Shown piece after piece: positions 625-41,100 of a DNA stretch of 64,000 nucleotides (positions within the stretch are counted from its first letter, which is position 1; each line of letters begins with the position of its first letter). The notes beneath the pieces were generated by a model, which was not told the DNA's origin, made no database searches, and saw only the letters and a program-made list of their open reading frames with translations. The stretch lies in assembly GCA_963922205.1 (NCBI GenBank), contig CAWUHX010000247.1:62001-126000 (forward strand). Direction: 5' to 3'. A program made the position numbers and the translations under genes. This stretch comes from Romanomermis culicivorax (Eukaryota > Nematoda > Enoplea > Mermithida > Mermithidae).

Positions 625-3600
625 AGTTGCGGCTGAAATATCCCGGGAACGTGGTGCGTTATGGTATATGGCATGAAGCTGCTACATACAGCAGCGACTA
701 TAATGCCCGGATTGAATTTGTTTTAAAACAGATTGAAAATTGGACTTGCCTGAAGTATACTTTCCTCGAAATTGTATATATTGTTTTTGTCATCCAGACA
801 ATTTCAGGTTTGAAGACATGCACATCAATGAAACTGAAGAAAAAGCCTTGAAGTTCGAGGCCAAACCGCCCATTATAATTTATCTTTCACAATTGCGTTT
901 TTGCTTCACAGTATTTCTGGATAACTTTTCGCAGTAGAGTTCAATGAAAATTTACTGCTAAAGGATACACAGGAAACTTAATATTTAGTGTTTTCTTGAA
1001 TGAGGAGACATGTGGAACGCATAAGGAAATAATGCAACTGATACTACATATACTAGGCGTTGGAAGGCCAAGAACTGACACCGAAAGATTCTATGATATG
1101 TTGCCACATAATCTCAGAGAGTGAGTTAACACACACATAATGCTCCAAATTATTTCGAGTTATGAACTTCAAAATGTTCCCAACCTGAGTAATTTGTTTT
1201 TCCCCAGCGTCGAAAATGTGGAAGCAATATGCAATCCATTGGGATATACTGAAACAACGCCAGCAGATCAGAACCTGTTGCCATTTGCAGCAATCCGAGA
1301 TCTACATAAAATATATTGCAAAGGTGAGGTGTGCTATAACATTGAGTGGCTACAAAGATGGGCACAGATGGTGGATGTGTATGGTGAATCAATTTCTGAA
1401 ACGTGGCAGATAAGACATTTTACCAGAATTTGTAGATTTTCATTTTGACTATGAACAGATTGTCGAAGGGCTTCCTGGGTGGCACCAAAGCTGTCCCACC
1501 ACTGGCCAATGTCGGGGTAGGTGTAACCATCCCGACCAGGGCTCAACAAAAATTGCCACATTCGGGAGCCGTGGATTGGCTACAACATCAATCCTACGGG
1601 TGGAATGTTGTATGTTGCCATACAACAAGATTTAGGGTTTGAAATCCACATCATCAACAGATTAGAGTGTTTGAGAGGGTGATGCTTATTTTGAATTTTT
1701 ATGTCTAGTAAGTGGACGTCATTGCAGGTTGTTATAAATTTTTCTGAACTTTGAATTTTTAATGCACGTCATTACCACACTTTTTATCTAACAGATTCTT
1801 GCCCTGTCAGAAGTCAGTGTCATAATGGTGGATTGGCTCATCCAAAACGTTGTTCACATTGCATATGTCCATATGGTTTGGATGGCGACCTGTGCAAACA
1901 GGCTTACGCAGACAACAGCACAGGTATTGAATTAGACATTCAATTAATTTTATACATTTATATTATATATAAATTATTGAAAGGAAATTCGTGTGAACCA
2001 ATCGAATTGCGTGTAAGTCCTGACCTGCTGCTTGTGCCATAAATACAGCACTTTTAGGCACAGCTACCCAAATTACAAATGGCTAACAATAATTTTGCTT
2101 AAATTTATTTCAAATTTAGCTTAATCTTCAAAGCTTAATTAACCTAATTAAAATTTGAAATTTAATAAAAAAAATTGGGCAGTAAAAAATTTTTTGTCCA
2201 ATAATATCCAACTTGGATATTTGTTAGAATAATTACTGCCAACAACAATTTTGGTATTAATTTTTTTAAAGATTGGCCTGCCAAGTTACTCCCGAACACC
2301 ATGGAAGGAGAGTCTAAGATTCCCAATTGGCACACGAAAGGTTGTCAATATTTCTGCATACAAACTGCCGCAAGACTGCACATGGCTGATTAAGGTGAGG
2401 CATCAGTGAATATAGACACGATGTTTGAGAAAATTCACCTCCTGTAATGGTAATCTGTGATAAGTCAAAACAAAACTATACCACAAAAATTGATACTTTG
2501 TTTGGTTTCAGTACTGAAAAATAAACATGTGAAGCTGTACTATAGAAAAAAATTATTCCTACAGTGCTAAAGTTGTACCATAGGAGGTATGTATATAAAC
2601 TCATGCTTGAAATTGATGTATAGTTCTCCGCATTGGAACTATCTCACTGTTACATTATCTCATGGTCAATTTTGCATAGATGTGGAGTGGCTGCTACCTT
2701 AAGTCCTCCCCAATGTCGAGATAAGACTTTGTTCATGTTGAAGAATAAGAGGACTTAATTGTTAATGCACTCTATACAGGATGAGTCCTCACGCAGAATT
2801 AGGGTACCTTGCTGTAACACTAGTGGTCCTTGAGGGTCAATACTCGGCTGCTGTGAGGTGTTGGACGTGGCCTTAGAAGCCACCTCATCCATAACCAGCT
2901 GAACACAATGCAACAGTTCTCTAGCAGAACTAAACACAACCTACAGTCACTAATTAGTATTTTGAATGACAACTGCTTGCAACCGAAAAGTGTTCAGGGT
3001 TGCCCCAGATGCTTCCTGCAGGCTAACACAAAATATTAGGAAGACACTATAAAAATATCCTGGTAGGCTCAGGTCCTACCTTGGTACTGGTCGAATAAAT
3101 CAGCCCCTTTCTCGGCTCAAAGTGCGTGACATAATAATAAATAATGATAAATATAAAATAATATATTTATTCAAATTAGACCTGTGCTGTCAACGTTCCA
3201 TTTATTGGGCGGAAGCAGAACAAATATGAATATTTCCATGGATGCGTCGTGCACAAGACCACAAAAAATTTAACGAATGATAAAATCATTCTTTTCTCTG
3301 TGGAATAGTTGCTTTGCCTAATACGTCAATTTTGTGTAGAAGATGAGATGACTGCTGCCATAAGTACATCCCCAAGATGCAGACGATACCCTCAAGGTCA
3401 TGGATTCTAGTCCTGGACTGAGCTTAACTTTTAGTGAAGCTTTGACAAATGGGAACAGGTTGCCTCAACACTAACACATTGAAGGCACTTTCTCCTGTGT
3501 TGATCAGTGCCCCACATGATCGCCACAGCACTCTTGTAGCTAAGTCTGGTATTCCAGGTGCCATTTCTGGCGGCAAAATTTTGATTGAAATGTTGAGGGG

Positions 3601-17290: not shown

Positions 17291-17974
17291 AAAATTGTGG
17301 AATACTACACTTGAGCAAAACAAATAAAGTTCCAATATGCATCCTGTCATCTAAACTCTGAAACAGAACTATTGTAACGCCCAGATTTATCTATACTTTT
17401 ACTTGAATCCAAAACGCCTGTGCTTCTCTATGGTCCACGGGGACGCAAACGATAACAATGAACTATAACGATAATGTCACACAAATAAATGACTCACCGA
17501 CGGCTTATTTTGCATTGACGCACAACAATAAAAGAAACGGTTTCTGTTTCAAAATGCAATTTGCATAAAACACGAACACGGATAAAAATCTGACGATTTC
17601 ATGCTTCTCTCTGCTTTTTATACTGCTTCCGCTTTGGCCACTCCCTTGATACGTGGGGGGTCCGCTTCCGAAATGGCTTTCCACCAATTGTCGCTTCCTG
17701 CTTGTCTTGCTTTTGTATATTGTATGCTTACCTGACCATGCCTTCCATGCTTTTTACGTATCGGATGCTTTCCACACCTTTGTATTACACTTGCTTCCTT
17801 GCTTATGATAGACTTAACCATGCCTATGTGCTTCCCTGTTTATTACTGATGTGTATATATGCTTCTGTATGAACCACGGCTACTGTTCCACTTGAGACTG
17901 GTGTCTGTGTTGAGAGTGGCCAAAGCAGCCACCTCAACTACGAATTATTGCAAAAGGAGAGCGCCTTTCCCACT

Positions 17975-18047
17975 GCTCGGTTGGCTCAGTTGGTTAGAGT
18001 GTGCGGACGGCAGCCGCAAGGTCCTGGGTTCAAGTCCCAGACCGAGC
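17975..18047 (+). tRNA. tRNA-like sequence in TRIM left LTR
   Basis: 73 nt folding into a full cloverleaf: 7-bp acceptor stem GCTCGGT/ACCGAGC, D arm with A-box TGGCTCAGTTGG, 5-bp anticodon stem TGCGG/CCGCA, 5-nt variable loop, and T arm CTGGG-TTCAAGT-CCCAG with a B-box. The loop reads ACGGCAG, so position 33 is C, not the near-universal T; a functional tRNA is doubtful. A TTTT run follows at about 18,052, usable as a Pol III terminator. Confidence 0.7.
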
Positions 18048-18203
18048 CTAACTTTTACTGAAGCCCTGAGTGGTGGGAACAGGTTGCCTCAACACTGGTG
18101 GCCCTTGACGGTCCGTCAAACTCGAAGGCGGAGGGATGTTGAGAGTGGCCAAAGCAGCCACCTCAACTACGAATTGTTGCAAAAAGAGAGCGCCTTTCCA
18201 GCT

Positions 18204-18276
18204 GCTCGGTTCGCTCAGTTGGGTAGAGCGTGCAGATGGTAGCCGCAAGGTCCTGGGTTCAAGTCCCAGACCGAGC
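18204..18276 (+). tRNA. tRNA-like sequence in TRIM right LTR
   Basis: Same 73-nt frame as the left LTR copy, at the same offset (67 nt into the LTR). The anticodon loop is ATGGTAG (T33 present, triplet GGT), but one anticodon-stem pair is broken (TGCAG/CCGCA). The acceptor and T stems are intact, and TTTT follows. Best read as an internal Pol III promoter-like module, not a gene for translation. Confidence 0.65.
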
Positions 18277-18949
18277 CTAACTTTTACTGAAGCCTGGAGT
18301 GGTGGGAACAGGTTGCCTCAACATCTGCATTGGGGCTTCTACTTTTTGTTACGGGGCAGGTGTATTTACGATTTTGGGAAGAACTAGTATAGCTATGGAA
18401 TGTGTGTTTTCATGTGAGTTCTGGGGGTCAGGTGCCGATGTGCAGATTAATTAGAATGTCTTTAATTGAATCAATAACAGCTTCTGGGTGTGTGACATTC
18501 AAAACAGAACACTTTAAATAAATTTATAGGAATGTCAATATGTGAAACCCAGACATCCTTGAGACGATGAATTATAGAATAAATTTATATGCAATAATAA
18601 ATAACACATAGTGTACATTATGAATTTACAACAATGCACTAGCATCTACATTACACTATGTGCATAGTGTAACACAGTAATCATTATAGAGTGTTGCTTA
18701 GAAATGTCAAGAGACACAACATTTACTAAGGAAGAAACCACACTTACTTCACTTTTTAGAAACTAACTGACATAATTTGACTAATTTTTCCCAAAATTTT
18801 GCTATATTATGTAACTAATTCGTATTTTCTATATGAGGACTAATTAGTTATTCTATTTATTCATGCTTAAGTACATAAATGAAAACAACCTGCTCTTTTT
18901 CTACGTAATTGTTATTGCGCAATTTTCTATACCCATGTGTTAAATTTTG

Positions 18950-19329: not shown

Positions 19330-20330
19330 AATAACAAGGTCATATAAAATATTAATAATCAATAGAACCACCTTTATTTTTGATGACTAAATTCAATCGA
19401 TTTGGAATACTTAAAATTAAGTTTTGAAGGAAACTTTGGAGAATTTTGTGCCAAGCTTTTACAACTGAATTCCAGAGTTCACTACGTGTTCTTGATGGCT
19501 TCTCGTGCATTTATCCTTCAAGGTAAGCCCACAAATTTTCAATTGGATTGAAATCTGGAGATTAGGGTGGCCAATCAGTGATCAAATTTATTGATTTTCT
19601 AAGAAACCAATTTTGGTCGATTTGGTTCTATGGAAGCTGGCATTACCCCATTGGAACATATAATTTCCATCTGGACGCAACAAAGCAATTGATAGAATAA
19701 GGGCCAAAGTGCAAAATGTCTTGGTAACACCTGCATTGATCAATATTCGATCGATCCAGCCAAAATGGCCAATTTCATTTCCACTAGAATATGCCCAGAC
19801 CATGACTCCTTCATAAAATTTGACAGTTTTTGTTAAGCATTCAGGCAGATAAGCTTCATCAGGCCATCTGATGCATTACTGGGGCTTGTCTGAAATAAAG
19901 CAAAGTCGAGATTCATCTGACCAAATAATATTTTGCCAATAATCGGATGTTTGTAGACGATGCTTGAGGGTCCTTTTTGACAAGAAAACATGACAATCAG
20001 CTTCAAAATCTAATGATAAGTTAGCCAAAGTTTGCTTTCTATTTCTCAAAATCAAGCCTTTTAATTTTTTGTCCATTCGTGGTGTTGTTTTCCTAGGTCT
20101 GCCAGATCTTTGTTTTGATTCCAGTGAGCCAGTTTCGCGTTCTTTAATCAAAATTTTATTTACACCATCTATGGTCACGTTAAAACCATAAATTGATTTC
20201 GTTTTTTGGCTGATTTGCATTCTCAATAATCAATTTTGATGGAAGGCTGAAATTCTAGCATGATTTTCTCAATTGATTTCAATTTTTTGCCTTGATTTTT
20301 TTCCAAAAGTAGGAAATATGAGTGGTCACT
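19330..20330 (-). pseudogene. Degenerate Tc1/mariner transposase
   Basis: On the minus strand, 20,226-19,876 encodes an N-terminal DNA-binding/linker region with GRPRKTT and ends in the catalytic-core motif YWQNIIWSDES. 19,803-19,588 continues with MVWAYSS.., WIDRI and a FHRTKST-like motif, typical of Tc1 family enzymes. Frames are interrupted and the C-terminal part towards 19,340 carries stops, so no active enzyme is made. Terminal inverted repeats could not be fixed. Confidence 0.75.
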
Positions 20331-22913: not shown

Positions 22914-25900
22914 TTAATACAAAAATACATTGTGCTGTTGCAAATTTGGATTTTTATCCAACTTTAAAATATGCCTAAATTGATCGATGGTCGGCCGACG
23001 ACAAATACGACAATTGAACGGTGATTTGTCGCCTCGTTCCCAAACTGGGGCCAATTTGCCGGCCCAACAACGTAGGCAAGGTAAGCGCAATAACAGTTTA
23101 GCGAAACGACCGGGTTCGTTACTATACGCCGTACGACAATATTCTTCCAAATGAGTGTAGATTTTTTCGCGAATATTTTCAATGTGGCACGACGATTTTA
23201 GATTTTGATGATCTGTGGTGAGAAACAGAAATGTCTTGCGAATTTTTTCAAGAAAAATTTGCACTCTCAAAGTTACCCGGATTTAACAGAATAATCGTCC
23301 GCAAGCAGCTTATTTCTGTTTGATCGATTTTCAAATTTTTAAATTTGTGGATCAATTCTTCATTGATCGATTCCGCCATCGATGATGTTGACGGGTCGAA
23401 ATTATTGGAAAATGCCACCAAAGTGAGTAAATTTAGTTCGTACCATGCTGAAAATCAAAATAATATCATACTATATCATATACTGTACTTTTTTGCTCAC
23501 AATTAAAAATTAATAAAACTTGATCATCCAATGGTAGATCCAAAAAACCGGGTATCATTTTAGAAAATTCCACCAACCGCCCAACTTCGTCGTTGTAATT
23601 TTCGGATGCACTCTGCAACGAAGGAGGAAAAGATATGAAATTTTGCAAAGTACAGTAACCACTCAAAATTTTTACCAAATTTCTCCCGAAACAACAAACT
23701 TCCGCTTCCAAGATTCTTTCGCCAATCAATGAATGATGATGATCATTGACCATAGTTGTACTGCTTTCGGGCATTTCACCAACTTCGTTGCTAATTGGCA
23801 AAGATTTTTCACTTCTCATACGCTGTCGTTCTTCCTGAACTGCTGAAAATAAGCGTGCAAAATTGAGCTCATTTGCATAATTTATAGGTAAATTTGCTAG
23901 ACTACCTTCCCGTTTCATGCCCATGGACAGGCATTTTTGGTAGCGGCAATATTGACACCGGTTCCGCTGCCTTTTGTCGATCAAACATTGTCGAGTGTCG
24001 CGGCAACTGTACGACAAATCTTTGCGCACTGTACGCTTGAAGAAACCTTTGCAACCTTCGCAGCTACAGTAAGAAAGCTGAATTTCGATTCACAAGTACA
24101 TGGTCTTGGTTTTCAGATAAGTTTTCAAAATTTTCTATTCTCCTGGATGTTTTTCTGCATTGGTTCGAACAACTTCAGCAGCTGCCCTGCAGGTGGTGAG
24201 GTAGGTAGCATACAACATTCCACCTCATCCAGTCCACAGGTTCTCAACTCATCCATTTTTGTTATGGCCTGTTTGGGATAGTTGCACCCAACTCGACATT
24301 GGCCAGTGGTGGGACAGCTCTGGCGACACCCAGGAAGGCCTTCACCACTGGCGACCATAGCAGGGGCCCCTGTTGCTGAGAGGATTGTTATATGGTAGCA
24401 TGCAACATTCCACCCGTAGGATTGATGTTTCATCTGATCCACAAATCCCTAACTTGTCCACTTTTGTTGAATCCTAGTTGAGATATCCCCAGCCAACCCA
24501 ACATTCGCCAGTGAAAAAACATCTCTGGCACCACCCAGGAAGCCCTTCACCACTTGTGATGATACCAGGGGCACCTATTATTAAAAGGGTACGGATGTTG
24601 TATGGTATCACACAACATTCCACCCATAGGATTGATGTCCCATCGAATCGATGGGTTCCAAATCCGACCATACTGCCCTGCAGTTGTATTGCTGTATGGT
24701 AAGTAACATACATCATTAGACCTTTAGGATTGATGTTGGACCCAATCAATGAGTCCTAGAGCCAGTCATTTTTGTTGAGCCCTAGTTGGGATGGTCACAT
24801 CTGATCCAACATCGACCAGAAGTGGGACAGTTCTGGTACCATCCAAGAAGCCCTTCAGTACTGGTGACAATACCAGGTGTCCCCAGTTCTCCAAGGAGAC
24901 AGGGGTGTACAATTGTAACATGCAACATTCCACATGAAAGACTGATATCTCATCCAATCCATGGGTACCGAACCTGGCCATTTTTGTTCAGTCCCTGTCA
25001 GGCTAGTCACATTGATGAGTGGTGGGACAGCTCTGGCACCACCCACAAAGCCCTCCGACACTGATTACTGTACCAGGCGCCCCTGTTGCTCCAAGGAGGA
25101 GGGATGTAGTATGGTAACATGCAATAGTTCACCTGTAGGGTTGACGTTTCATCCAATCCACGGGTGATAAAACCTGGCTTTTTTTTGTCCTGGTTGGGAT
25201 GATCACACCTATCCGACATCGACACTGATGACCATACCATGCGCCCTTGTTGTTCCAAGTGGGACGGATGGTGTATTATAGCATACAACATTCCATCCGT
25301 AGGACTGATGTTTTACCCAACCTATGGGAGTGCTTGCCGGAATGGTCACAAGTGGCTGGAGAGCTCCCTGGGGCGCCTCCCTGGAAACCCTGTTATCAGT
25401 GCAGTTTCCTGGCGAAATTATTCCAGCGGCATGTGTCCTTATGCTCGAGTCAGACCGTGCTGCCCCTCTTGGCCAACTCCAATCGGACTCCATGTCCGAC
25501 TAAATCCCGTCCTTACAGGTACCCTAGTCGGATTCACAGATTTTTTGGCATTCGACCAACAAACGCCCATTTTACCTATGAACTCCGTAATGTTTGCCCG
25601 ACGCCCTATCACCGCATATGCTGCAAATGTGTTTGGGCACTCCTAGCGGATGTCCCGGTGGATAAAAGTTGACCGGCGCCGGTTGATGTTGATCATTGCT
25701 GATCGATCGATTATCATTGTAGAAAAATTGTTGATCGGCAGCACGAAAATTATTGATTTGTTGTTGTTGTGGTTGATTTGGCAAATCTGAATTATTAGCA
25801 CTTGTTGTTGTTGCTGTTGTTGTAGAATCGGCTTCAAATTTAATTAATAAAGATTTAATCAACAACATATCGATTTTGTAATGTGTGAATAAGAATGGCG

Positions 25901-28026
25901 GTTGGGAAAATGTGGAACAACAACTACAGACCGAAAATTCAAACCGTATCCTAATTTCCATTCCTGGTAACCTGACACCATTTCTGGAAAGATTTTCCAC
26001 AAATTACTGTTGTGTGTAGCTCTTAAAACGTTGAATATATGTGGAACAGGGTTGCTGAAAAATTTTTATAAATGTGGTCTAGTTTCGAAATTTAGGTCAC
26101 TTTTGGAAAAAGGGTAAAATGACGAAAATTTGAGGAAATGACCAGAAAAGAAAAATGTGAAAAATTGAAAAAAAAGATTCAGTTCAAAAAAAAGATTTGG
26201 CTCAAAAAAAAAGAAAAATAGAAGAAAAACACGAAAAAAAATCCAAAATTAACAGAGAAAATTAGTATAAAAATCGAACTTTCCAAATTTTAAAAACATA
26301 TATTTAAAAATCAGTTTAAAAATTCTCAATCTTTACTACAAAATCTTACAATTTTGTTGTAAATTCTACTGATTAAGGACTGAAAAACCTACGATATGTT
26401 TAACTTACTCATATATTATAATAATCCTATAGTACAAAAAATCGCAATTTTGGTAAATTTTGTTGGGCGAAAGTAAACTACTACGACCGAAATGGACGTA
26501 AACATTCGACGAAATATGGAAAAAACAACCCTTCGACCTTGAAAATTTTTTCTTTTTTTTATGAAACCGGTAGTTTTATTATTGTTTTTTTTTGTTAATT
26601 TATTTTCTTCGCAAAACGACGTATATGATGTAAAAAATTATGCACAAATTGTTGTTGTTTTTTTGCGAGAGAAAAAATGAGAAAAAAACATCAATATAGT
26701 GAAACTATAACTAATCTTGAATTTTTGAACTAATGAACTAATTATCAACTTAAGAGCTAATTTTATTGGACCATAATTCAAAAAAACGTGAAAATTCTTT
26801 GCTGATGAATTTTGAAAAATTATAATTCAAACAATTAAAACATGACACTCGCGAAAACTTGTCAATGTGAAAAAGGATATATATCAACAAAATTGTAAAA
26901 AAATTCAATAATTAAAATTTTAGAAAAATTAAAACTGAAATAATGGTTATCAACAACTAAATTCCTATTCATTAATAACAAATTATGTCAAATAGTGATA
27001 ACCGTAGAGTTTAATAAAGGCACACTTGAATAATTTATTTTTAAAATGTTAACAGAGGTGATTATATAAGTTTAAAAAGCAACATATTATGTCTTATCTT
27101 AAAATACAAAAAATATCCTTAAATCAATAGACACTATACATTTTTAATCATAAAATTAATTAATATAAACATTAATGAAAAATAAATGAACAAAATTAAT
27201 AATATTAATAAACGTAAAAATTTATATTAAAACAAATAAATATATTAACCTTTATTAATAAATGTCAGTTGAGGTATTACTGCTAGATGCTAAAAATAAA
27301 ACTTGAAATACATTGAATAAATCATAAAAATATTAATATTAATAAAAAAATAAATGAACCAAAAATTTAATAATGTTAATAAACATAGAAATTTATAATA
27401 TTAAAAAAAACAAAAAAGTATATTAACTTTTTTTAATAAATGTCAGTTGAGAGTTTTTATTGCTAGATTCTAAAAATTAAACAATAAACACTTCAAATTG
27501 ATGGTTTAAATTAAAATTTGAGATTTAAGGCTTATTATGTTCTTAAAGTGTACTCATAAAAAAATTAATAATGAAAAATTAAACAATATCATAAATTTGC
27601 CTAACAATAGTGCCAAAAGCATTGCTAATACTTTGAAAGAAAATTTTTAATTTAATGTTGGGAATTTAACAAAAATTTTAAAATGTTAGAATTTTCAATT
27701 TAGAAGCATTTTAATTGAAATAAAATTTCATTTGAGACTATAAATAATCCAAAGTACTTGTTTTGGACAGCTTCAAATAATAAATCAATTTGAAGACTAT
27801 AATGAACTAATGCTAATATAAGGTCGCTAAAAAATGAACAGCTAATGTACTAATAAACTAATAAATTATGAGCTTGTGTCCACTAATTACCATCATTAAT
27901 TAGCCAAAAATTAAAATCGTCGTTTAAAATATCGTCTTCGTGGTTCAAAAAATTGTCGAAAAATTCGTTATTATTGATATTATTAGCCGTAATAATCGTC
28001 GTCGTCGTAGAACTTTCGGCTTCCAT
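22914..28026 (-). CDS. Retinoid X receptor-type nuclear receptor (NR2B), 432 aa
   Basis: Seven exons on the minus strand: 27,891-28,026, 25,576-25,831, 23,906-24,063, 23,676-23,842, 23,501-23,612, 23,277-23,447, 22,914-23,212. They sum to 1299 nt with every phase kept. The acidic, Asn/Thr/Gln-rich N-terminus is followed by the DNA-binding domain: first zinc finger [15 protein letters not shown]-box CEGCKG, second finger with CRYQKC. Its near identity to RXR, not to other receptors, decides the call. The ligand-binding domain keeps [10 protein letters not shown] and LEEYCR....[12 protein letters not shown]. The family binds DNA as hetero- or homodimers in the nucleus. Odd points: after LLLRLP the helix 10-12 region is rewritten (four extra Cys), and the AF-2 position reads FRHILKL without the usual Glu. 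Intron 2 (25,575-24,064), between the two zinc fingers, carries a satellite array. Confidence 0.93.
24190..25340 (-). repeat. ~200-bp satellite array inside the RXR intron
   Basis: CAACATTCCACCYRTAGGA or close variants recur at about 24,208, 24,401, 24,619, 24,921, 25,124 and 25,287. Between them lie CCAGTGGTGGGACAGCTCTGG and CAGGGGCCCCTGTTGCTC-type blocks. Units are diverged and partly truncated. A single unit is found at 1460-1625. Orientation is arbitrary. Confidence 0.75.
26000..27890. other. AT-rich remainder of RXR intron 1
   Basis: Long A/T runs. A ~185-bp partial duplication (AATAAATGTCAGTTGA at about 27,260 and 27,438). No exon or element supported. Confidence 0.4.
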
Positions 28027-29960: not shown

Positions 29961-32480
29961 ACTATGTACTGCCTTTTTATCGTTGCTCGCATTTGATTGG
30001 TCGTCGAAAAATTGGGTGAGCAACAACCGAGAAATTTTTTGGTCGTCACCGGCGTAGTCGTCGCTTTCGTCGTCGTTGTAAACTCGTCTTCCTCATTATT
30101 ATTATTATTATTATTGCCTTCCAACGAACCGTAAAACGTCAACATTGTAACTTTGTGTACGGCTAAATGTTTATATTTACCGTAGGAAGGCGATAGTAAA
30201 AAATACCAACCGTCGATTTGCTGAATAAATTTATCATGTTCACACAGTTTTGAAAATTTCAAGTGTAAACTAATACTTGAAGTGTAAAGTGATATTATTA
30301 TTGTGAAGTAATATTAGAAGTGTAAATTCAAATTTGCAGTGTAAAGTAATATTTGTAGTGTAAAGTGATCTTTTAGTTAAAAGTAATATTTGTACTGTGA
30401 AGTAAAATTTGTAGTGTGAAGCATTATTTTTATTCTAAAGTAATATTTGCATTGTAGAGTAATATTTGTAGTGTAAAGTAATATGAGCAGCGTAGAGTAA
30501 AATGTGTACTGTAAAGTATTATTTGTTGCGTAAAATAATATGTGTAGTGTTGAGTAATATATGTAGTGCGAAGTAATATGTGTAGTGTAAAGTAATATTT
30601 GTATTTTAGAATAATATTCTTACTGTAGAGTAATTTTTTTCGGGTAGAGAAATATTTGTAGTGTAAAGTAATATTTGTAGGGTAAAGTACTAATGTATTG
30701 TAGATTAAAATGTGTTGTGTGAAGTAATATGTATAGGGTAAAAGTAATATTTGTAGTTTAAACTACTATTGTATTGTAGATTAAAATTTGTAGTGTAAAG
30801 TAATATGTGTAGTGTAAAGTAATATTTGTATTGTAGAGTAATATTTTTAGTGTAGAGTAATATTTCTAGTGTAGAGTAATTTTTGTAATTTAAAGTACTA
30901 TTGTATTGTAGATTAAAATTTGTAGTGTAAAGTAATATGTGCAGTGTAAAATAATATTTGTATTGTAGAGTAATATTTCTAGTGTAGAGTAATATTTGTA
31001 GTGTAGAGTAATATTTGTAGGGTAAAGTACTATTGTATTGTAGATTAAAATTTGTAGTGTAAAGTACTATCTGTATTGTAGAGGAATATTTTTAGTGTAG
31101 AGTAATATTTGTAGTGTACAGTAATATTTGTAGTTTGAAGTACTATTGTATTGTAGATTAAAATTTTTAGTGTAAAGTAAAATGTGCAGTGTAAAATAAT
31201 ATGTGTAGTGCAAAGTAATATTTATAGGGTAAAGTACTATTGTATTGTAGATTAAAATTTGTTGTGTGAAGTAATATGTGTAGGATAAAGTAATATTTGT
31301 ATTGTAGAGGAATATTTTTAGTGTAGAATAATATTTGCAGTGTAAAGTAATGAATGTAGTGTAAAGTAATATGTAGTGTAAAGTATTATCTGTGGTGTAG
31401 ATTAATATGTGTAGTGTGAAATAATATTTGTATTGTAAAGTAATATTTGTATTGTAAAGTAATATGTGTAGTGTAAAGTAATATGTGTAGTGTAAAGTAA
31501 TATTAGTATTGTACAGTAATTTTTGTAATGTACAGTAATATTTGTATTGTAAAATAATATTTGTAGTGTAGACTTACTTTTTTGGAGCGCGCCAAATGAC
31601 CGACGGTGAAAGACATACAACCTAGGAATACGCTACGTCTGCGGAAAAATAATTGGTTTACACCACATATGCTAATTAGGTAGTAGGCGCTCACTCGAAA
31701 GACGTCGGTCTATGCCACATGGAAATTAGAATCCTTTTGTCGCGATCTTCGGGTAACAATTCTCTGAATAGACCTTTGAATTTACACTAGAAGATTCATC
31801 ACTTTACACAAAAAATTTACATCGTGAAAGTTTGGTTGTAAACCGGCTTATTGCTAAAGCAAACTTGCTCCGTTTTACACTGAGTACGTTTTTCGTCGTC
31901 GGGCACCAAGCAAACCTGCGTAGGATAGAGTTTACACAAAAAAAATTTGAAGTCGATTTACACTGCATACTCTGACGTAACAATTACAACAGGACGATCC
32001 GTCGGGCGGTATTAAATTTCTGGCTTGGTCTACTAAAACAATGTAAAATGATTTTTGAAGTATTTACCCCGAAAAGTGCAATCTCACTCGTTATAGTTAA
32101 TAGACGCCGTTGTAACAAAAGACTAATGTACAATTCGCCTACAAAAAATCGAAAAGTGTAAAGCAACATCACACTACTTTACACTCTACACTACCTTTAA
32201 TCCCGAAATGCTTTAAACCGTGTAATAAACGTCGCATTTTATTGGCGTTTTCGTTCATGGCCGCCGTCGACGTTTTTTCTTCGCCGCCGGCGCTCGACGT
32301 CGACGACGACGAAAACGTCGCCGGCGCTTTAAACCGCGGATTCGTTTTCGGGAATTTATTAGGGCTAGGCGAGGGTGGAGGCGGCGGCGCGGTCGCCGAT
32401 TTCGTAGCGTAGTCGTCGTTTTCGTCCCTGTAACGTTTTTTGTTGTTAACGTTGGTCGGTGAAGCGGAACGTGATATCAT
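29957..32480 (-). CDS. C2-domain protein of the RGS3 / nematode RGS-7 type, without RGS domain (295 aa)
   Basis: Exons on the minus strand: 32,195-32,480, 32,088-32,138, 31,971-32,032, 31,821-31,915, 31,695-31,763, 31,578-31,638, 29,957-30,220; 888 nt, all phases kept. Residues 1-95 are basic/Pro-Ser rich and end LKHFGIK. Residues 96-about 230 form a C2 domain: GELYISL, LTITIDQARNLIP, CYVRVCLVPD..RTQCKT, PVYNQTF, RILISMWHR, FLGCMSF, DGWYFLL, YKHL. The GCMSF...GWYYLL pattern is characteristic of RGS3-type C2 domains (recognised from family knowledge). A poly-Asn and Thr-rich tail ends at 29,957. The C2 loops lack an obvious full set of Asp ligands, so calcium binding is doubtful. The RGS half expected in this family is not downstream; a separate RGS gene lies upstream at 35.1-41.8 kb. 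A longer form spliced past 29,957 cannot be excluded. Confidence 0.82.
30285..31568. repeat. ~19-bp minisatellite (AGTGTAAAGTAATATTTGT) filling the last intron of the C2 gene
   Basis: About 1.28 kb of the 1.36-kb intron consists of degenerate units of the form AGTGTAAAGTAATATNTGT, with a sub-family containing TACTATTGTATTGTAGATTA. On the coding strand it reads ACTTTACACT. The open frames crossing it are low-complexity artefacts. Confidence 0.9.
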
Positions 32481-35132: not shown

Positions 35133-38100
35133 CTAGCTATTATAATTGCTATTATCTATATTGGTCAAATGATTGCAGAAATTGATATACAAATCTGAGC
35201 GTAAAAATCGCGGATATGTATCTTTCTCCATTAGATTGTAAATTTTACACTGGGCTACATCGAATAAGATGCCATCGGGAGTCAAAAGTTTATCAACTAT
35301 GGCTCGACGCGTGTGCGGATCCAAATTAACCTTGCAAAGGGAAAAGAATGTGGTTTACACTTTGTGTACAAATTTAAAAATATACTCTACATCATTTCCA
35401 CAAGTTTACACAAAAATTGAATTCAAAAGCATCAACCTTTCGACACCAGTTTACAATAAAGAAGCTTCTACTTTTATCTATACGGAAATACAATGATTGT
35501 AAACTCACTTCTTTAACCGCAAATTCCGAAACGTATTGTTCGTAAATTTGATTGGCCAACGAAACGAAACTTTGCTGTTTGAGCATATTTTGAGGACTTT
35601 CGTCCAAATTATCGAATAATAATTTATATTGTCGGCATAGTAAATAGAATTCCAAATTTTCTTGACTAAATTCGCGTTTCAAAAATTGTTGAAACAATTC
35701 GACGCCGGCTGCAAAGAAAAAAAAACGTTCCTTCGGAAATTTAATTTCTCAAAGCGTAAATTTACGAGACGTGCGAATTAGTGTAAAGTAGCATTCTATT
35801 TCTGCAGTGAGGAACGTTTTAAACTGAACAAGAAAATTAAGGAAATTTTTTGAAGTGTAAAGGTGGGAGAAGTGCGAATTAGTGTAAAGTAGCATTGTAT
35901 TTCTGTAGTGATAAACATGGTAAACTGGACAAGGAAATTAAAGGAAATTTTTTCAGGTGTAAAGATAGGAGACGTGCAAGCTCAGGACGAAATGAACACT
36001 CTAGAAAGGTCTAAACATCAAATTTCCGTAATGACGATTATGTAAACTAAAAACAAGGAATTTTTGAAAGTGTAAAATTGAAAAACGCATAAACGTAGGA
36101 CGAAATGAGCAAAGTAGTAAAGTATTAGTGCCCATCATTGTAAACTAAACTGAGACAGTAATTGAATTTTTTGAAAGTTTCAAGTTTTTTCGACGAAGTA
36201 AGCACGGTAGTGGAATTTTTATTGACTATTATTGTAAACTAAAATGGGAATTCAAGGAAATTTTATAAAGTGTAAAATTATGACAAGTGCAAACTTGAGA
36301 TGAGATAAGAAAATAAATGAAATCTTATTGACGATTAGTGTAAACTAATTTATGGCATTAATTAGATTTTTCAAAGTGTAAAGTTATGACAAGTGAAGAT
36401 TTAAGACAAAATGAGAACAGTGGTGGAATCTTGGCGACCATTATTGTAAACTAAATTAGGAAATTGATTAAAATTTTCAAAGTGTTAATTTACGAGAAGT
36501 GTGAACTTGAGATAAAACAAGCATTGTAGAGAAATTTTAAGATGTAATTTCTGTAGTAACCACCGTTGTAAATAAAAATGGGAAATTGATTAAATTTTTC
36601 AAAGTGTTACGAGAGGTGCAAACTTGGAAGTAAATAACAAAATCTTAAGTTTAAATCTCAGGACCAAAAAAATGTAAACTAGTGTAAAAAAATTCGTCTC
36701 GGTGTAATAAACGATTATTAAAAGGAAGCATAAAAGGTGTAAATCGGTATTCAACTACAAATTTGTAGTCACAATAAGTGTAAAAAGGTCTTGGAGTGGC
36801 TAACATTGTAAACAGGATAATGAGAGTATGGTCACGGTGAAAAATTTTCATGATAACAAATAAGTTTGGTAAATTAGAATGGCGGTGTAAAAAGCACAAG
36901 CAGTGGATAAAGTGAACAACAATACTGTAAAAAGTGTAAAGTGCGACGCCGAAAATATTGTAAAGCTAACTTTTATTGTCGAGCAAATTTTTTAAACTCT
37001 GCGACCAACTTTCCGCATCTTGCAAAGTGACGACGTCCTGCGCCGTCGACGACGACGACGACTGGCCGGTTTTTTCGCGTTGTTTCGTAATCAAGGTCGA
37101 AAACATCGGCGGAATAACTTTGTCGGTTGAATGACGCCGCAAAAAATTTATTCCTTGCAAAAACGTCGAATGGCTGCAATTTACACACAAATATACGGGA
37201 GGCTAAGGCTTAGGCTTAGGCTTAGGCTTAGGTCCAATAACTCACATGGTTTTCTTGAACAACGGCTTATCGTATCTAATAGGTGTAGGAATTTTTTCTT
37301 CTTCGGCGTCTTCTTTGGGTACCATCCTCAAAATCTGTGGGAAAAAATTGTCACAGTTTACACCCAAGACTGGAAAAATTTTCTCACAGGTTCACTCCTC
37401 TTCCTAAATATCGAATCTTTGGCTTCGGCGACCAACAACGACAAACTGCAGCCCGTAGGCGTAACGACCGACGACGTTTGCGTCACTAGGCCGCCGTCGC
37501 TGTTCATGCGATAACGGCGCCCAGCCACTGCGCCATAATGCCTATATGCTGCGCGTCGTCTTATGGATCCCATGCCGGGTGTCGTTGTCGTCAAATTTAG
37601 GCAATTTTGCATGAAAGTTCGAACGCAAAAAAATTTGGCGTCATAATCATCCTCAGCCTGTCCTCGTTTGGTGGTGGTGGTGGTAGCGGATGCGGCTTCA
37701 TCATCGCCAACGTCGATCATCGATTCGCGGCGTAGTTGATGTGCTATTCCGCCATCTAAGGACAATGTGGCGGGTGATTGCTCGCCGCTATGTGCTCTGT
37801 AATGGTCGTTCGCACATTGAACCATATTGTCGTTGGTGCTCGTCAAACGACGTCGAACGGCGACGTTGGCTATCATCGACGAGTTGGTCGCTTTCAATTT
37901 GAATTTGTTAAAGAATTGTTTACGTTTGGTTTGCGAATCGGGACTGCCTGTGGACACGAGGGTGGACACGCGCCGGCGACTATCATGCATGGTCGTGGTT
38001 GGAGGTGACATGCCGCCTCCATTGTCGGAGAAAGTTTGTTCATCAGAAGTGGCGTCGTCGCATAGTAAGTCATTGGCTGCCAGGCTGCGCATGGACAAGG

Positions 38101-41100
38101 GACTTGTGGGAGTGGTGGTGAAAAAGGGCGTCGATGCTGAAAATTTGTTGACAACGTTTGACCTTTCAGTTATATCTGCAGGACAATTTGTGATTTTTAA
38201 AGTTTTTGCAGGTACACCTTTACCCCCATTCCTATAGCCGGAAAGGCAAGTATAAGGTCATTTAAGTGCCCATCTTGTATGAGAGGCGCTCTTTGAGTGC
38301 TTCATGCCACGTATTCCACGGGCTAGCACCTGTCTAACGAGCAGGACTCCTTCTGCTACCTACCTACCATTTACACATTCACCACACATTTGATGACACA
38401 TCAAAGACAACTAGTGTCGAGGCAGGCTGCTTCCATTGCACGGGTATTCAGTAGGAGTTAGTCTTGCACCATCTCAGCCTAGTGATTACCACGTCCAACT
38501 TGGGTGTAATCCGGATTTTCCTGGTAGTTGGCCTATGTTGAGGCAACCTCTTCCAGCTACTCGGGGCATCAGTAAAAGTTAGGCTCGGTCCTGGATTTGA
38601 ACCCGGGACCTTGCGGCTACCGTCCGCATGCTCTAACCAACTGAGCCAACCAAGCAACAGGAAAGGTGCTCTCTTTTTGCAACAATTCGTAGTTAAGGTG
38701 GCTGCTTTGGCCGCTCTCAACACCTAGAAAGACACAGCCAACCATCCTTTCCGGGTAGATAATTTGTGTAGGCAAGCTTTGTACACAGCTTGCAGGGTCC
38801 ACTTGGCCCAGTTAGCATCTTTGTAATGAGGTGCAACAAATGAGGAGATGGGCCCACCTCATTTATGGGTAGGTAGCTGAGCAAGTCCTGTGTGGTCAGG
38901 CAGGAGCTAGTCTGTGGAATGTGGCCTCCACCACGCAGAAAACCACACCCGAGAGTTTCATTTGAGGTGGGCAATTACATGACTGTGTAAAGCCTGCCTT
39001 TCTGTCTATAGGAAAAAGTGTACAGGTGTACCAGTGAAAATTAGAAGAAAGAATTTTAGCTTGCCTCGGAATTTGATCCCAGGACTTGAAACCGAGAATT
39101 TGTGGCTTTTACCATGCTCAAACGAACTGAGGTGGCTGTTGTGGCCACTCTCAACATTCTGAATGGTTTTTTTTATTTTTATCACTGAAATGTGGATTTT
39201 GGCAAAGATGGTAAAAACATAAACTGAATTTTTTGACGTAGATTTCAAATAAAAGGTGGATATAGGATACATTGGATGACACTTTTGACGGAACTTGGCA
39301 TCTGAAAGGCAGTCATCCCACATCTGTGCAAAATTGTTAATCCAAAGCAAAGGCACAATGAGGTGAAGTGATTAAATAATGATTCTCATTTTTAACTCAA
39401 CTCTCTTATCGTCTGTGTTGCCCATTGTCCGACCTGCACAGTTAAGTTTTTCAGACCTGCAGGAGCATATTGGTGAAATCCTGCATGCTTTTCTATTGCA
39501 AGCCAGTGTGTGCTTCTCAGTTCCAAAAAAAATTATAGTCTGTGGAAAAGATCTTGCGAATATGGCAGTTACCATGCAAGCATGCACATAATGCACTTTA
39601 GACCACTGACTTGAATCAAAACATTGGGTGTTTAATTCCAGTTTTATCCAGGATGAGAAAGATTGGAAGGGGATGCAAAAACTCTGATCATTCACATTTT
39701 CCCATATTTGGAATAAAATTTCATATACATCGTGCCACCTTAGAGTGTTGCACATAGCTGTAATACAGTAATCCTCGGTGAATTTCTCGGCACATGAACT
39801 TGTTTTCAACCCTTATCAAAAATAGAAAAAATAGACTACAGGTTACATTATGACTCAAGGTTGTGTTTGGTAAGGTTGGGAACTGTTAGACTGTACTCTA
39901 AGTGACCTGCAGTAATCAGCTAATTGTGAACAAACAATTAGCTCATTTAGTTATTTTGCTGGTATGTCTTTTGGCCTACAGGAACTAACCATATAATCAG
40001 CCAAAAAGTCCGATATCTACATCCACATTTGGCAGCAAAAACTGGCAAGAATGCCAATTACCGAATCCATCACATGGCGCTGTCTTGGTCTAGTGGTTAT
40101 CACCTCTGACTGCTAGTCTCATGAACCAGGTCTGATTCTGGGTGTAACCCGAAATCGAATTTCTGGTAGCTGGCCCAGGCAGACACAGCCTTTCATCCTC
40201 TCGGGGTAGACAAATTGCGTAGACGAGCTTGGAACGCTGCTTGCCGAGGTCCACTCAACCCAATTAGCATGTTGGCAATAGTGCGGCGAATGGGGAGGTG
40301 GGCCTATTCCATTATGAGGTAGGTAGCCAAACAAGTTCTGGTTGTCAGGCAGACGCCAGCTTGTTGCCTCCACTAGGCGGTAAAAAGCACCCGAAGAGCA
40401 CCTCTCATGTGAAGTGGGCACTTATATGACCCCATAGTCCTCTAAAGCCTGCCTTTCCGGCTGTAGAAAAAATGGGTAGGTGTACCCGCAAAAATTCAAA
40501 AAAATCGCTTTTTATACAGTAATCTACTATACACAAGTGTTGCATACTGAATATGAATGCCCCAATTTTGTGTTTTTTCTGACAGATAGGGTATTTTCGT
40601 TTTTTTGTGTGTCATTTAGAAAATTGAAGTTTTTGACTTTTTTAGGATTTTCGATCCACGAGTCTATGCTGTCATAATTTTGTACACAATGGGAAAACTT
40701 TTACAGTACAAAAATTCATATGACTCATAATCAAAATTCTTCGCAAAAGCTACAATTTCCAATATGTTTAATTATCAACAGGTGTAGAAACACGCAAATT
40801 TGAGTGACAGTGATGAAAACGCCAATTACAGTGATGATTCCGTTAAGAGTATAGAAGACGTGCAAACATCTACTCCTTGGCCAGATATCAACAACGTGGC
40901 ATAAAGAATGGTGTTCCAGCTTTACCCTTTCGAAGGTCACATTGAAGAAAATGATACTCAAAAGTCAAAACGCCAATGAAAGTGAACAAGAAAATTTGCT
41001 AATTGGAAATAAAGCAATGCTGAATAGATTATTGATTGTTGATTTTAAGTTTTAAAATAAAAATTTTGTTGCTAATAAAGATAAAATTTTAAATCTATCA

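Follow-up and report, generated by a model that had tools for sequence, protein, structure and literature searches.

TRIMs that carry a tRNA-derived sequence in their LTRs were named Helenus (TRIMp3) by Kojima in 2024, and the available text of that paper places them in fungi, six animal phyla (its Table 1, which has no Nematoda) and Selaginella, with lengths of 311-1263 bp, 4-bp target-site duplications in animals and tandem arrays of LTR-11_DR; mobilisation of the animal members is linked to Gypsy, and use of the Pol III promoter is unproven there too (PMC10886601). Cassandra is a plant TRIM with 5S rRNA in its LTRs, and its array units are reported to be without differences (PMC7215508). 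Like the element described here, biv-TRIM is an animal TRIM with solo repeats, tandem arrays and an unclear PBS, but its hosts are bivalves and the available text makes no mention of tRNA within its repeats (PMC6934838). The tandem LTR retrotransposons of rice likewise form arrays that share internal LTRs inside one target-site duplication, but these are autonomous-type Gypsy and Copia elements of plants, and a weak terminator has been proposed as the cause of their arrays (PMC11899658). The origin of such arrays is treated as open in the available text of both PMC7215508 and PMC11899658. TRIMs figure as a class of repeats in one nematode paper (PMC7593179, from the part of the text available). 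Among the literature matches listed there was no tRNA-bearing TRIM from a nematode, though Repbase or Dfam may have an entry for one.

The window, which here means the whole stretch of 64,000 nucleotides that was analysed, holds one complete element at 17908-18323. A repeat search found direct repeats of 187 bp with 94% identity at a spacing of 229 (17908-18094 and 18137-18323), so that the copy totals 416 bp arranged as LTR (187), interior (42) and LTR (187). The LTRs start with TGTTGAG and finish with CTCAACA, and TCTG flanks the copy on both sides (17904-17907 and 18324-18327). The complete TRIM of the original prediction was thus seen both in the letters and in the repeat search. A 130-aa open frame spans the LTRs and the interior, and by eye it encodes no retrotransposon protein. 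The features of this copy and of its relatives in the window are as follows.

17904-17907, no strand: 5' target-site duplication TCTG, from the sequence, repeated at 18324-18327
17908-18094, plus strand: 5' LTR, 187 bp, TGTTGAG...CTCAACA, from the repeat search and the sequence
17975-18048, plus strand: tRNA-like sequence of the 5' LTR, ARAGORN Ala ggc (the family is mostly Thr ggt), Rfam 54 bits
17982-17993, plus strand: box A-like TGGCTCAGTTGG of the 5' LTR, from the sequence, with the consensus as quoted in the available text of PMC10886601
18027-18037, plus strand: box B-like GGTTCAAGTCC of the 5' LTR, from the sequence
18053-18056, plus strand: TTTT of the 5' LTR, Pol III terminator-like, from the sequence
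18095-18136, plus strand: interior, 42 bp, from the sequence
18095-18111, plus strand: PBS-like stretch CTGGTGGCCCTTGACGG, with 234 exact genome occurrences and 0 for the reversed control
18124-18136, plus strand: PPT-like purine-rich run GAAGGCGGAGGGA with one internal C, from the sequence
18137-18323, plus strand: 3' LTR, 187 bp, from the repeat search and the sequence
18204-18277, plus strand: tRNA-like sequence of the 3' LTR, ARAGORN Thr ggt, Rfam 49.9 bits
18282-18285, plus strand: TTTT of the 3' LTR, from the sequence
18324-18327, no strand: 3' target-site duplication TCTG, from the sequence
38536-38722, minus strand: solo LTR, 187 bp, with ends of the type seen in the complete copy, 88% like the 5' LTR, flanked by TAGG on both sides, with a tRNA-like sequence at 38582-38655 (the remaining one of three tRNA calls in the window, Rfam 48.4 bits)
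3378-3470, plus strand: fragment, the second half of a related LTR at 80%

Just outside the solo LTR, the start of a divergent LTR of the same family lies at 39128-39156 on the minus strand (29 bp at 93%), and a box B-like match at 39102 lies next to it.

Each LTR of the complete copy contains a tRNA-like sequence of 74 nt by ARAGORN, and both score well above the gathering score of 29 for Rfam RF00005. The cloverleaf and the following TTTT in each LTR had been predicted and were found, at a length of 74 rather than the 73 nt given. The A and B boxes, also predicted for both LTRs, are present in the 5' LTR, while box A of the 3' LTR is altered (TCGCTCAGTTGG against TGGCTCAGTTGG in the family). 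Rfam at gathering scores, applied to the whole window, finds tRNA only and no 5S rRNA in the LTRs. A long stem is predicted around the tRNA-like sequence, formed by LTR positions 50-73 with 159-183 (window 17957-17980 and 18066-18090); at its pairs 65:167 and 66:166 two sequences each are changed on both sides, among few diverged copies.

The window interior begins with CTGGTGGCCC and is purine-rich at its end. Across copies the interior start is conserved and TGGTGGCCC-like, a candidate for the PBS that in Helenus adjoins the 5' LTR and is complementary to a tRNA, and the purine-rich GGCGGAGGGA, with one C, that precedes the 3' LTR is a candidate polypurine tract. The run in the window copy (GAAGGCGGAGGGA, with one C inside) differs from the GACGGCGGAGGGA of most other copies. 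The original prediction had offered Cassandra as the known parallel; that it is the sole one is not supported, given Helenus, in which animal TRIMs carry tRNA-derived LTRs (PMC10886601, available text). The present element shares with Helenus the tRNA-derived sequence in the LTRs with boxes A and B, a TRIM structure with a short interior at a length below ~1 kb (416 bp, within 311-1263 bp), 4-bp duplications, solo LTRs and tandem arrays as in LTR-11_DR; it differs in its nematode host, outside the six animal phyla of Table 1, and in a cloverleaf that is nearly always intact by ARAGORN, and the origin of its arrays is analysed here (compared with the available text of PMC10886601). With Cassandra it shares a Pol III-type gene within the LTR and long tandem arrays with shared LTRs, but the gene is tRNA here and 5S rRNA in the plant element, and the arrays are heterogeneous here and uniform there (PMC7215508, available text). 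The element is therefore not a new kind but a member of Helenus, apparently in a new phylum, Nematoda, and perhaps the first Helenus reported from a nematode.

The nematode host is supported by the cuticle collagen N-terminal domain Col_cuticle_N, which marks nematodes and had 50 matches in the genome, each above the curated cut-off, and none in 14 control genomes. SL1 RNA gave no match in the genome, and none in the controls either, which makes this search uninformative about the host. Nuclear receptor exons at 22914-26003 on the minus strand, with zf-C4 and ligand-binding domains, are close to RXR among the best 120 of 668 hits; an RXR-like gene fits an animal host and does not fix the phylum. 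Other neighbours on the minus strand are an RGS domain exon at 35392-35748, a frame at 19876-20229 whose weak HTH_32 match scores 25.3 bits against a cut-off of 33.7 and which is possibly a DNA transposon remnant, and long AT-rich frames at 30430-31573 in which YYFTLHILLY-like units recur, probably a tandem repeat.

The genome (359 Mb, 595 contigs) was searched for further copies. The 416-bp query gave 74 matches listed from the best 40 of 1272 first-look candidates, and an older related element used as query gave 76 listed from the best 40 of 483; complete and tandem copies are over-represented among candidates with the highest scores, and neither these match counts nor the 234 exact PBS occurrences are total copy numbers. 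Removal of repeat-site loci and of the older element of L052 left 55 LTR groups, comprising 29 two-LTR copies and 26 arrays of 3-7 LTRs. The interior was 42 bp in nearly all copies examined and 43 bp once, in L063. The structure seen in the window is not due to chance, since other places in the genome share its ends and, nearly always, this interior length.

An exact 4-bp duplication flanked 43 of the 55 groups, and a 5-bp duplication none of those 43. The twelve groups without one were at L007, L011, L035, L040 (CTAT/GTAT), L042, L045, L048, L049, L067 and L073, with two in L076, and five of the twelve have incomplete LTRs. Complete two-LTR copies with a duplication (n = 22) showed 0-14 differences between their LTRs, with a median of 4.5. 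The 5' and 3' LTRs of the window copy mismatch at 12 of 187 positions, which places it among the older members of the family. At L004 a three-LTR array is nested inside an older relative (LTR 68% and interior 88% like the window copy), and L052 is a paralogue of that older element without the array, which provides an empty site. When the L004 flanks were joined with one GTTG removed, they aligned to L052 with no gap at the junction, in pieces of 93% and 98% identity; this is one clean insertion, seen against a paralogous empty site. What had looked like a head-to-head dimer at C185 proved to be an array inserted into an older, divergent relative, and the dimer reading was rejected.

These observations bear on whether the element could be a tRNA SINE in dimeric or tandem form, mobilised by a LINE; a dimeric SINE was the outcome that the original prediction had named as its refutation. 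The Pol III boxes are tRNA-derived and 26 of 55 groups hold tandem copies, as such a SINE might show, but the ends are exactly TG...CA, 4-bp duplications are present in 43 of 55 groups, a solo LTR carries its own duplication, the empty site is clean and no tail was seen at the copy ends inspected. The tandem copies, too, have retained their fixed ends and duplications in most cases (19 of 26 arrays). None of the traits of a tRNA SINE (lack of LTRs, duplications of variable length, a simple or A-rich tail) is found in this element, and the SINE reading was rejected as extremely improbable. The refuting signs that the original prediction had named, variable tails and flanks lacking 4-bp duplications, were not seen in this interspersed family.

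The next question concerns transcription. Of the 154 aligned LTRs, a set that leaves out the window solo LTR and the older family, ARAGORN gave a cloverleaf for 152, reading 146 as Thr-ggt, 5 as Thr-agt and 1 as Ala-ggc; it called no tRNA in the older related stretch of L004. When LTRs were mutated at random with the same substitution load, 145 of 154 kept the cloverleaf. Rare variants are about equally dense in the tRNA part (0.0125) and its flanks (0.0137 upstream, 0.0107 downstream) of the family alignment, so that no selection on the cloverleaf is demonstrated, and neither the tRNA part nor box A is differentially conserved across the 154 LTRs. Departures from the majority amounted to 4 of 616 cells in TTTT, 15 of 1693 in box B, 51 of 1848 in box A and 693 of 25188 in the rest. 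A single G-to-A variant makes up 33 of the 51 departures in box A, and this variant presumably still agrees with the box A consensus.

Canonical LTR elements use Pol II, and the element may be a Pol II-transcribed TRIM in which the tRNA-like part is a passenger, a reading that the even conservation of the tRNA part and box A favours. Against it stand the cloverleaf in almost every LTR, the few departures in TTTT and box B, and the lack of AATAAA, ATTAAA and TATAAA in the majority LTR and interior; I regard it as unlikely. A second possibility is that the LTRs function as tRNA genes, by which tRNA-Thr would multiply in the host. The 151 LTRs that read as Thr would be in line with this, but 146 of them are Thr-ggt, which is not known as a usual eukaryotic cytosolic tRNA-Thr. 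A few Helenus families could encode a tRNA, but a functional tRNA is judged unlikely in the available text of PMC10886601, and for the present family this reading is very doubtful indeed.

The explanation that I consider probable is a Helenus-type TRIM, that is, a non-coding, non-autonomous LTR retrotransposon with a tRNA-derived LTR sequence, working as follows. The precedent of Cassandra makes it likely that Pol III transcribes the element from inside the LTR, as the original prediction had suggested: the A and B boxes would recruit Pol III, with a start near LTR position 60-67, and the polymerase would pass the weak TTTT in the 5' LTR without stopping and end at a TTTT in a downstream LTR, such that the repeated R region would be roughly the tRNA-like sequence itself. 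Reverse transcriptase and integrase would come in trans from a putative autonomous LTR retrotransposon, the cDNA would integrate with a 4-bp duplication, and solo LTRs would arise by LTR-LTR recombination. As for priming, a tRNA-Ile, which ends in GGGCCA, would fit roughly the first nine bases of CTGGTGGCCCTTGACGG; a search for a tRNA with the full 16-nt complement to the PBS-like stretch and a T arm found none. Self-priming by the LTR's own tRNA was rejected: its 3' end mismatches the PBS by eye, and the effect would be weak at best, since 12 of 200 shuffled LTRs paired with the first 24 interior bases as well as the LTR itself did in its best duplex. Counting against the Helenus-type mechanism are a tRNA part with no clear excess of conservation over its flanks, a box A as variable as the rest, the 12 of 55 groups without a duplication and the arrays (5 of 19) in which the outer LTR pair is the farthest apart.

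LTR distances, with permutation P values, were evaluated in the 19 arrays whose LTRs are complete and whose duplications match. The two outer LTRs were strictly the closest pair in 9 of these (P 0.0055) and strictly the farthest in 5 (P 0.12). In an earlier subset of 12 arrays the outer pair was closest in 6 (P 0.033) and farthest in 4 (P 0.10), and its mean rank was no different from chance (P 0.25). Outer LTRs were identical and the middle LTR distant in L017 (5 and 5 differences), L032 (7 and 7) and L072 (10 and 10), and L008 and L028 also had an outer distance of zero with smaller gaps to the middle LTR. Variants in the middle LTRs of L008, L032 and L072 recur at other loci, and in each of L017, L025 and L032 one variant among the 154 LTRs is confined to both outer LTRs. 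Identical outer LTRs around a foreign middle one are expected if a multi-unit RNA is reverse transcribed: an RNA or cDNA spanning more than one unit would insert an array at once, with the outer LTRs regenerated identical and the middle ones carried along.

Other arrays would have enlarged through unequal crossing-over. L036 and L037 show the exact additivity of LTR distances that unequal crossing-over predicts, L012 (G000 C476) is a six-LTR array with a duplicated trimer, and L056 (G000 C213) is a seven-LTR array that alternates; the latter two are higher-order repeats built from a TRIM. Some exchange between copies also occurs, as shared variants separate the two LTRs of the two-LTR copy L016. 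On these grounds, all arrays might have grown after insertion, through unequal crossing-over, ectopic gene conversion of middle LTRs or a one-LTR circle recombining through the interior. Crossing-over predicts an outer pair that is farthest, however, and the excess of arrays with the outer pair closest and the variants held only by both outer LTRs argue against such growth as the sole origin, which is possible but somewhat doubtful. There was no LTR lineage confined to arrays, and the variants examined occur in two-LTR copies and arrays alike, with variant 74G commoner in arrays (27 of 98 LTRs against 5 of 56 in two-LTR copies). Whole-array retrotransposition fits some arrays and unequal crossing-over others, and both seem to be at work. 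I tentatively suggest, as a plausible though far from assured reading, that this Pol III-type TRIM can move as whole multi-LTR arrays: if Pol III termination is leaky at each LTR, RNAs of at least two units would result, which would be reverse transcribed and integrated at once, and a short element may in this way spread as ready-made tandem arrays whose outer LTRs are identical and whose inner ones are foreign.

The family extends Helenus to Nematoda, a phylum not listed in the founding paper (PMC10886601). It also adds to the kinds of element that can be mistaken for tRNA genes, as the ARAGORN calls illustrate. Comparing outer with middle LTR distances offers a simple test of whether tandem arrays were inserted whole or made later by recombination, and the signatures of both are present in this one family.
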